Source: Burkholderia plantarii
GTDB lineage: Bacteria; Pseudomonadota; Gammaproteobacteria; Burkholderiales; Burkholderiaceae
Assembly (NCBI RefSeq): GCF_001411805.1
Contig: NZ_CP007212.1
Location: 1,054,001-1,118,000, forward strand
Length of the DNA: 64,000 nt
Reading direction: 5' to 3'
Made by a program: the position numbers and the translations under genes. Below the pieces are notes generated by a model. The model was not told the origin of the DNA. It saw only the letters and a list, made by a program, of their open reading frames with translations, and did no database searches. Below are positions 25,668-27,438 of the stretch, piece after piece (positions within the stretch are counted from its first letter, which is position 1; each line of letters begins with the position of its first letter).

Positions 25668-25778
25668 GGGCTTGTCGTGGCGCGCCTGGTGCCGGCATGC
25701 CGGCCCGGGGGCGCGGCGTGTCCGCTCAGGGCGCGGGCTGAGAGACGGCGCGCGCCGTCCGGCTTGTATGTTTAAACC

Positions 25779-25961
25779 AGACCAGTACGGTAAAGTCTGA
25801 CGGTAGCCAGACAAGACCGTGCAGTTTGTCCGCCGCTTGGGCGTTCGAGCCCGTGACTGAGTAAAGAGCGCACGGTCGCCGTGCTGGTCTTCCCGAAACC
25901 CGAACGGTTACGCGCCCCGGCACCGCCGAGTGCGCATGTACAAGCATGGGATCCGAAGATC
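25779..25961 (+). ncRNA. predicted bridge RNA of the IS110 element
   Basis: Predicted about 183-nt RNA starting 7 bases after the -10 box and ending just before the transposase ATG; the IS621 bridge RNA is of similar size and place. A 5' hairpin has stems ACGGT/ACCGT (25787-25791, 25816-25820) and GTCTG/CAGAC. The target loop has left guide GTCCGCC (25828-25834), a GGGC/GCCC hairpin, then right guide GACTGAG (25855-25861). A spacer hairpin CACGG/CCGTG follows. The donor loop is closed by GGTCTTC/GAAGATC (25886-25892, 25955-25961), with left guide ACGGTTAC (25904-25911), an inner GCGC/GCGC hairpin and right guide ATGTACAAG (25936-25944). Guide pairing is set out in the findings. Exact ends are inferred. 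Confidence 0.82.
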
Positions 25962-26927
25962 ATGTCTGCTCCTTCCTTCGTCACGGTTGGCATCGATGTG
26001 GCCAAAGCCCACGTCGATGTCGCCTTGCTGGGCGCCCGTCTGGACGCTCAACGCTTCAACAATGACGCCGACGGCCATACGGCGCTGGCCACGGCATTAC
26101 AGCCATTGGGCATCGATCTGGTCGTCATGGAAGCGACCGGTGGCTATGAAGCCGAATTGGCCTGCGCTCTGCAAGGTGCTGGCTTGCCGGTGGCCGTCGT
26201 CAATCCCCGCCAGGCTCGTGACTTCGCGCGTGCCATGGGCAAGCTCGCCAAGACCGATTCCATCGACGCCCGCATGCTCGCCGAAATGGCCTCGGTGCTG
26301 GTGCGTCGTGAAGATCTGTCCCGCTTGCTGCGCCCCGTCTCCGACGAGCGCCAGCAGTGGCTTGCTGCTCTGCTGACGCGCAGGCGCCAGTTGATCACCA
26401 TGCTCTTATCCGAGCGGCAGCGGCTGCAAATCACGCCCGAGCGTTTGCATCCCAGTTTGCAGGCCATCATCGCCGCCATTCAGGCCCAGCTCGACGACAT
26501 CGATGCTCAAATGGTCGGCCACGTTCGCGAACACTTTGCTGAACTCGACCGATTGCTGCAATCGACTCGCGGCATCGGCCCGGTATCCAGTGCCTGCCTG
26601 ATTGCTCAACTGCCGGAACTGGGCAAGCTCAATCGTCGCCAGATTGCGGCACTCGTGGGCGTTGCCCCTGTCGCTTGCGATTCGGGCTCGCGCCAAGGAC
26701 GACGACGTGTGCAGGGCGGGCGCTTTGAAATTCGCCGCGTGCTGTACATGGCGACGCTCACTGCAACCCGCCACAACCCGGCTATCAAGGCCTTCCATCA
26801 ACGTCTCAAAGCAGCCGGCAAACTGCCCAAGGTCGCGCTGGTTGCCTGCATGCGCAAGCTCCTGACCATGCTCAATGCCATGGTCAAATCCAACACCCTT
26901 TGGGACGATTCGCTTCATCTCGCTTGA
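25962..26927 (+). CDS. IS110-family transposase (bridge-RNA-type recombinase)
   Basis: 321-aa DEDD transposase. The N-terminal RuvC-like domain has the acidic tetrad Asp12 (GIDVAK), Glu57 (VMEATGGYE), Asp99 and Asp102 ([10 protein letters not shown]). A helical middle region (about 115-200) leads to the C-terminal Tnp domain with [20 protein letters not shown], where Ser241 falls at the same number as the catalytic serine of IS621. The protein appears intact. ATG 25962 is chosen because the predicted bridge RNA stem closes right before it; an in-frame extension to 25881 would run through that RNA. The stop codon overlaps the -35 box carried by the right end. Confidence 0.95.
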
Positions 26928-26943
26928 CTCGAGACACGGTTAC

Positions 26944-27438
26944 TCAGTCGTCGTCGTGCAGCGATTGCGCGAGCGCGTCGAGCGCGTCGCCCGTCACGCG
27001 CACCACGCGCCAGTCCGGCAGGACCACGGCGCCCATCCGTTCGTAGAAATCGATCGCCTGGCGGTTCCAGTCGAGCACCGTCCACTCGAAGCGGCCGCAG
27101 CGGCGTTCGACCGCGAGCGCCGCGACCGCGCGCAGCAGCCGCGTGCCGAGCCCGGTGCCGCGGCAGGCCGGCTTCACGTAGAGATCTTCCAGATAGAGGC
27201 CGCGCTTGCCGACGAAGGTCGAGTAATTCTGGAAGTAGAGCGCATAGCCGACCAGGTCGTCGTCATGCGTGGCCACCAGCGCGCCGGCGGCCGGATTTTT
27301 CCCGAACAGGGCATCGGCCAGATCGGCCTCGGTCGCGACGAACAGATGCGTCAGCGACTCGAATTCGGCGAGTTCGCGGGTCAGCGCGATGAGTGCCGCG
27401 ACGTCGCTCGGTGCTGCGTCGCGGATCTCGAATTTCAT
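26944..27438 (-). CDS. GNAT-family N-acetyltransferase
   Basis: 164-aa acetyltransferase of the diamine/thialysine acetyltransferase-like branch. Acetyl-CoA binding motif CRGTGLGTRLL (about 100-110) follows the strand GLYLEDLYVKP; WTVLDWNRQAIDFYERMGA is the motif B region. Acceptor unknown. GGAGGAA lies just before the ATG at 27438, which overlaps the stop of the upstream small membrane protein by four bases. The IS110 core CT touches the last base of this gene's TGA, yet the reading frame and stop are unchanged. Confidence 0.9.
   Translation of the reverse strand: MKFEIRDAAPSDVAALIALTRELAEFESLTHLFVATEADLADALFGKNPAAGALVATHDDDLVGYALYFQNYSTFVGKRGLYLEDLYVKPACRGTGLGTRLLRAVAALAVERRCGRFEWTVLDWNRQAIDFYERMGAVVLPDWRVVRVTGDALDALAQSLHDDD

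Follow-up and report, generated by a model that had tools for sequence, protein, structure and literature searches.

A Burkholderia IS110-group insertion sequence with a predicted bridge RNA and copies at stop codons

The window, by which is meant the whole stretch of 64,000 nucleotides analysed, carries at 25763..26944 an IS110-group insertion sequence that very probably inserts by means of its own bridge RNA, whose left and right target guides flank and include a CT core. Directly observed are the anatomy of the element, its copies, the covariation of guides with flanking DNA, the gene-end positions of the insertions and the unbroken junctions in relatives. RNA production, the circular form and the recombination steps are inferred from IS621 by analogy. 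The part most worth specialist attention is the habit of inserting at stop codons.

Element, copies and transposase

25763..26944, + strand: IS110-group insertion sequence, 1182 bp including the CT core at both ends, delimited by seven same-ended copies and homologous unbroken junctions
25763..25764, + strand: left core dinucleotide CT, common to all seven copies
26943..26944, + strand: right core dinucleotide CT, common to all seven copies
25962..26927, + strand: DEDD transposase/recombinase, 321 aa, stop included, with Pfam domains PF01548 and PF02371

The genome to which the window belongs (8.08 Mb, three contigs) contains seven full copies of the element, which are nearly identical and all start with CTTGTATG and finish with GGTTACT, with CT on both sides. 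The six sister copies, absent from the earlier note on this DNA, all have one sequence, from which the window copy departs by a double change of CC to TT at 26899-26900; this replaces Pro by Leu close to the end of the transposase, at a position where IS621 also has Pro. Three further loci of this genome (L008, L012 and L013) are fragments matching parts of the element. From the coordinates, the non-coding bases number 199 at the left end and 17 at the right end, so the element shows the long left end and short right end that are a trait of the IS110 group.

Five copies (L001-L004 and L006) were compared with relatives, and for four of them (L001, L002, L004 and L006) homologous DNA runs unbroken across the joined flanks in a relative, with small gaps; for L003, the sole relative with homologous DNA fails to span the junction. 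The proposal of the earlier note that an IS110 element occupies 25763..26944 is borne out by the Pfam domains and the seven same-ended copies, and its boundaries by the shared ends together with the unbroken junctions. Its expectation that relatives would show GTCCGG-CT-CAGTCG was realized in part: the homologous junctions are indeed unbroken, but the nearest relative reads GG-TT-CAGTCG at the window site, with eight additional bases on the left, and thus marks where the insertion lies without giving the empty site letter for letter.

The transposase scores above cut-off for both of its Pfam domains (PF01548, DEDD_Tnp_IS110, E 7.3e-25; PF02371, Transposase_20, E 1e-16), and residues 9-319 align with the recombinases of IS621 (8wt6, E 1.1e-35) and ISCro4 (9t56, E 3.2e-35). 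By eye, the IS621 residues D11, E60, D102, D105 and S241, which passages of PMC11208158 name as the DEDD and catalytic serine residues, are all identical in the 8wt6 alignment. The closest named protein relatives found are from Burkholderia pseudomultivorans (88%) and B. cenocepacia (87%), in a search from which records very close to the genome of the window may be missing. In a scan of 399 genomes from this order, only three apart from the own genome contained a relative with an E value of 1e-110 or better. Phage records gave no match to the element, and viral contigs gave one partial copy. The element is a well-supported addition to the bridge-RNA IS110 group, a kind that is itself already known.

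Target guides and their covariation with the flanks

25829..25837, + strand: left target guide TCCGCCG with core CT, placed by the register test and covariation
25855..25861, + strand: right target guide GACTGAG, with TGA within it, supported by right targets matching at 5/5 in 56/68 sites and by 0/5000 shuffles
25756..25762, + strand: left target flank CGTCCGG, a poor match (2/7)
26945..26949, + strand: right target flank CAGTC, an exact match

The letters quoted in the earlier note, namely GTCCGCC at 25828-25834, the GGGC/GCCC hairpin, GACTGAG at 25855-25861 and both flanks, are all found where it had placed them. Its right guide stands: GACTGAG matches the CTCAGTC flank exactly, and such a match is unlikely by chance, since CT is followed by CAGTC in 0.024% of cases (20 of 80 sampled stretches) and CTCAG is followed by TC in 3.1% of cases in the own genome (all 80 sampled stretches). 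Across L001-L007 the right flanks agree with the guide at 5, 5, 5, 5, 5, 5 and 4 of 5 bases. The left guide had been set in the wrong register, one in which position 25834 of the guide falls over the core C. As described in parts of PMC11208160, the core CT of IS621 belongs to both the left and the right guide, and therefore the left guide here is TCCGCCG-CT. In this core register the left flanks of L001-L007 match at 2, 1, 6, 6, 4, 6 and 4 of 7 bases (4, 3, 8, 8, 6, 8 and 6 of 9 with the core counted), as against 6, 5, 2, 2, 4, 2 and 4 of 7 in the earlier register. The latter was rejected as a general rule, as it fits the window copy and L002 only and leaves the five others at 2, 2, 4, 2 and 4. 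Among 1179 background CTCAG sites, 0.7% show a 6/7 left match in that exact register, and 8.1% do so once every register within the loop is admitted. The suggestion that the left target of the window copy can be read from its RNA consequently loses its support, for in the core register this copy, at 2/7, is among the two worst of the seven.

Support for the guide mechanism comes from relatives with other guides. The 76 distinct sites of the covariation set fall into 29 guide classes; 68 of them have a right target and 8 have none, and sites sharing left flank and guide were counted once. The leader pattern by which sites were parsed required CTTGTAT at the left end, ACGG(A/T)TACT at the right end and, within the right guide, either TGAG or TCAG, and thus favours closer relatives; unparsed, and outside the 76 sites, are L073, L094, L100, L103, L104, L257 and L259 among others, partial copies, and distant relatives such as L026, L106, L110 and L248. 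Within the set, left matches average 3.76 of 7 versus 2.62 by label shuffle (76 sites) and right matches 4.74 of 5 versus 3.49, and the two most variable right bases alone match at 1.79 of 2 versus 0.70, none of 5000 shuffles being as good in any of the three comparisons. With equal class weights the left value is 4.03 versus 2.69 (0/5000). The signal disappears once the left guide is displaced by one to four bases, save for a weak rise at three (seven bases counted; 28/1500 shuffles). Outward from the core, the left match per position is 0.92, 0.66, 0.67, 0.66, 0.38, 0.16 and 0.32, where 0.82, 0.42, 0.36, 0.37, 0.24, 0.13 and 0.28 are expected. The right target agrees with the guide at 5/5 in 56 of the 68 sites; among the 12 imperfect ones L091 matches at 0/5, and its right end looks rearranged. 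Five distinct sites of B. arboris MEC_B345, added later, all have the guide-predicted CTCAGTG, with left flanks at 5, 4, 5, 4 and 4 of 7; the set already contained their guide class, represented by L038, there without a right target.

These data bear on whether the recombinase protein alone could read a fixed CT-CAG, the likeness of leader and flank being due to descent or chance. CT and CAG are near constant over the parsed relatives, as such a reading would have it, yet the variable guide bases and the flanks change jointly (0/5000 shuffles), and even the CAG of the right target is altered along with the guide, to GAAGC in L258, L260 and L261 and to CAA in L100 (by eye), so that in the former three CAG has shifted to GAA with the guide. 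Site choice by protein only is therefore very improbable and was rejected on the covariation. The check proposed in the earlier note, that flanks should covary with guides in other copies, thus came out strongly positive on both sides, and the IS621-type logic of target guides in the left end is upheld over 29 classes. As an extension of that logic, the element contributes a new relative, but is less novel than had been proposed, as a bridge RNA has already been predicted in 85.7% of IS110-group elements (Durrant et al., in the sections of PMC11208160 on this point).

By analogy with IS621, the left guide TCCGCCG-CT would pair with the bottom strand to the left of and over the core, and the right guide GACTGAG with the top strand over and to the right of it, while the donor loop would pair likewise with the joined element ends and the recombinase would join donor and target at the CT core. 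At natural sites the right side is matched almost always, and the left mainly at the four core-adjacent bases. The 29 natural guide variants constitute a natural test of the bridge-RNA code beyond IS621, and a right side that is tight with a left side that is loose beyond four bases bears on the specificity of bridge recombinase tools.

Several observations on individual loci stand beside this analysis. In L258, L260, L261 and L064-L066, the guides are altered and the sites look, by eye, like palindromic repeats and not gene ends. In B. cenocepacia NCTC13227, L043, L045, L047, L052 and L095 have one flank in common while the other differs, as if by inter-copy recombination or an assembly effect. 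L090, L092 and L093, from Tepidicella and two Tepidimonas genomes, have no leader of the usual kind within the stretch displayed, share the same right flank (by eye) and may represent an old fixed copy; tRNA-like sequence lies just upstream in L090 and L093 (by eye). The window itself has a tandem pair of tRNA-Asn genes on the minus strand at 18577-18799.

Left pairing at poorly matched sites

The left side is poorly matched in 19 of the 76 sites, the window copy included, with at most two of the five core-proximal bases in agreement. Some of these sites fit well if a single base of the flank is looped out, or else one or two bases of the guide. A first bulge test gave 2/3000 by guide shuffle and, against the genomic background, p 0.006-0.03 for the full set of 19 poor sites and 0.04-0.12 once L091 was excluded; four Burkholderia sites alone, chosen post hoc, gave 5e-5 (sum) and 0.0014 (count). 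Bulged left pairing at poor sites is plausible.

A particular form of such pairing would retain, at least for the window copy, a left guide much as first proposed, with GTCCG on GTCCG and two guide bases looped out before G-CT. When guide bases 25833-25834 are skipped (model R2b), the window copy pairs at 6/6, the model reaches p 0.009 over 18 poor sites together as one of seven models, and the description in parts of PMC11208160 of off-target sites seemingly tolerant of target insertions (Durrant et al.) has been invoked in its support. Five of the seven copies with this same guide nevertheless fit the core register and not the earlier one, and the seven models span p 0.0013 to 0.83, the best being another one in which a single guide base is skipped, all of which makes this form unlikely. 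The attempt to account for the poor left matches by one kind of bulge, with seven models on the 18 sites, gave no clear winner.

Predicted bridge RNA and element junction

25779..25950, + strand: predicted bridge RNA region, from the fold z, the consensus fold and pair conservation, with approximate RNA ends
25779-25791/25878-25890, + strand: predicted outer stem of the bridge RNA
25795-25812, + strand: predicted small hairpin of the bridge RNA
25815-25822/25870-25877, + strand: predicted target-loop stem
25839..25852 (25839-25842/25849-25852), + strand: GGGC/GCCC hairpin between the target guides, paired in 98.8% of cells in 20 relatives
25899-25901/25948-25950, + strand: predicted donor-loop stem
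25904..25911, + strand: left donor guide ACGGTTAC, 8 bases identical to the right end at 26936-26943
25935..25944, + strand: right donor guide CAT-GT-ACAAG, pairing with the left end CTTGTATG with two bases skipped
26924..26929, + strand: TTGACT, -35 half of a promoter-like motif that forms only on joining of the ends
25767..25772, + strand: TATGTT, -10 half of the same motif in the joined ends

The leader folds with z = -3.95 versus shuffles, and the predicted structure is an RNA in the left end that has conserved stems and a pair of internal loops. The GGGC/GCCC hairpin belongs to the consensus fold of 20 relatives and is absent from the single-sequence minimum-energy fold, which pairs the guide loop otherwise. 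In these relatives the 37 named pairs are held in 94.1% of cells, as compared to 23-42% when partners are slid by one to three columns; shuffles reach 92.3%, close to the observed share because most columns hardly vary. Pairs changed on both sides number six versus 2.1 expected (0/500 shuffles), while the base-pair types in the RNA of the 20 relatives are no more than in shuffles (19 versus 19.2). An Rfam search gave no family match, the single hit, at E 0.6, scoring 17.4 bits where the gathering score is 60.

The leader also contains a donor loop, which the earlier note had not described. Its guides match the joined element ends, the left one contiguously over 8 bases and the right one discontiguously. 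The left donor guide covaries with the right end over six sequence types from distant relatives, with L073, L115 and L116 as exceptions, in a comparison for which loci were not made unique, some were unparsed, and those with right-end strings mismatching the guides (L030, L239, L250, L271, L074 and L099) were taken as mis-parses. Joining of the ends yields TTGAC(N)-17-TATNNT at 69 of 70 sites, and its -35 half TTGACT encloses the stop codon of the transposase.

Insertions at stop codons

26944..27522, - strand: GNAT acetyltransferase gene, from the ORF list and Pfam (PF00583, E 6.4e-22), with its TGA stop at 26944-26946 overlapping the core

For the window copy, a position at the stop of the GNAT gene had already been proposed. 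This overlap confirms it, and all seven copies of the genome turn out to be placed in this way: in each, the core T and the next two bases of the right flank form, on the other strand, a TGA that ends a coding frame. By Pfam, the seven flanking proteins are a GNAT, a MOSC, a creatininase, an aldehyde dehydrogenase, a short-chain dehydrogenase, an ABC-transport auxiliary lipoprotein and a TetR protein. The right guide reads TGA followed by G and the genome is GC-rich, and therefore many matching sites are gene ends; hence, on this reading, copies settle on a stop codon and leave the protein unchanged. In 1.6 Mb of the own genome, gene ends account for 7/35 of unoccupied CTCAGTC, 61/183 of CTCAGGC and 215/1144 of CTCAG sites, and for 13/33 of those background sites at which the left side matches well (4 or 5 of 5) and CTCAG is followed by TC or GC. 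The chance of 7/7 is about 1e-5 on the CTCAGTC background and about 1e-3 on the good-left-match background, before allowing for lost harmful insertions.

Across the family, 70 sites were entered for gene-end classing, of which 5 were too short; the 65 classed sites comprise 31 gene ends, 4 intragenic sites and 30 that are neither, as judged with a codon model trained on the window's genome and less reliable in other species. The gene-end share of parsed sites is 7/7 in the own genome and 6/7 in another (G022, L016 being the exception), while in B. cenocepacia NCTC13227 (G007) 2/10 are gene ends and 3 lie inside genes. CTGAG, and hence TGA, is kept in the right guide of 28/29 parsed classes, a share biased upward by the TGAG or TCAG that the pattern required, and the right targets of distant relatives, L248 for instance, are different.

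It may be asked whether these positions reflect loss of harmful insertions only, and not the guide. Just 4 of the 65 classed sites lie inside genes, and a good left match by itself lifts the background gene ends to 13/33, which leaves selection less to explain; set against this, gene ends make up only 7/33 of the non-intragenic background CTCAGTC sites as compared to 7/7 of the own copies. Loss as the only cause is somewhat less probable than its opposite, and the guide preference and the loss of harmful insertions probably both act on the gene-end positions. A stronger and more tentative proposition, which we consider improbable on balance, is that in the closer relatives the bridge RNA is tuned to stop codons, so that insertion at gene ends leaves the protein intact as a safe-harbour strategy unlike that of IS621, with bulges on the left perhaps tolerated; confidence in it was lowered slightly because of the parsing bias.

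The stop-codon habit shows a way for an RNA-guided element to spread while leaving genes unbroken. It also predicts sites still free: CTCAGTC occurs 197 times in the own genome, those created by the copies included, and among CCGCTCAGTC sites four are occupied by one copy each (L003-L006) and two are still empty. A stop-codon preference of IS110 elements was not found among the papers listed in searches of the open-paper literature, which is no proof of its being unpublished, and the term 'stop codon' is absent from the main texts of PMC11208160 and PMC11187229. The stop codons at host sites mentioned in part of PMC2516522 concern IS481-type transposases and are a separate matter.

Comparison with known systems

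The IS1111 group and other seekRNA elements resemble the window element in choosing targets by a guide RNA, but according to passages of PMC11208160 the IS1111 RNA is carried by a long right end, whereas the window element has 199 non-coding bases at the left and 17 at the right end, and hence no long RNA-bearing right end of the IS1111 type. ISCro4, of the IS110 family, has a homologous recombinase (9t56, E 3.2e-35; compared by protein sequence alone). ISPpu9, ISPpu10, ISPa11 and other REP-associated elements share the IS110 family and a strict choice of site, as described in part of PMC1525189; their sites are palindromic repeats, whereas here gene ends make up 31 of the 65 classed sites, although by eye L064-L066 and L258-L261 resemble targets in such repeats.

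The closest parallel is to IS621, the IS110-group element of E. coli, with which the window element has in common a DEDD and serine recombinase, a CT core and the inclusion of that core within the guides. The likeness extends, as far as sections of PMC11208160 and PMC11208158 describe IS621, to a bridge RNA that lies in the left end and has a target loop and a donor loop, and to a promoter at the joined ends, here as predicted features, and to a discontiguous right donor guide of similar plan (PMC11208158, in part). The two differ in the right-hand pairing, which covers 4 bases in IS621 and 7, core included, in the window element, and the IS621 authors themselves mention, in the text available, longer right guides in other members. 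They differ above all in target, since IS621 mostly targets REP repeats, whereas the window element reads a TGA-containing motif at gene ends.
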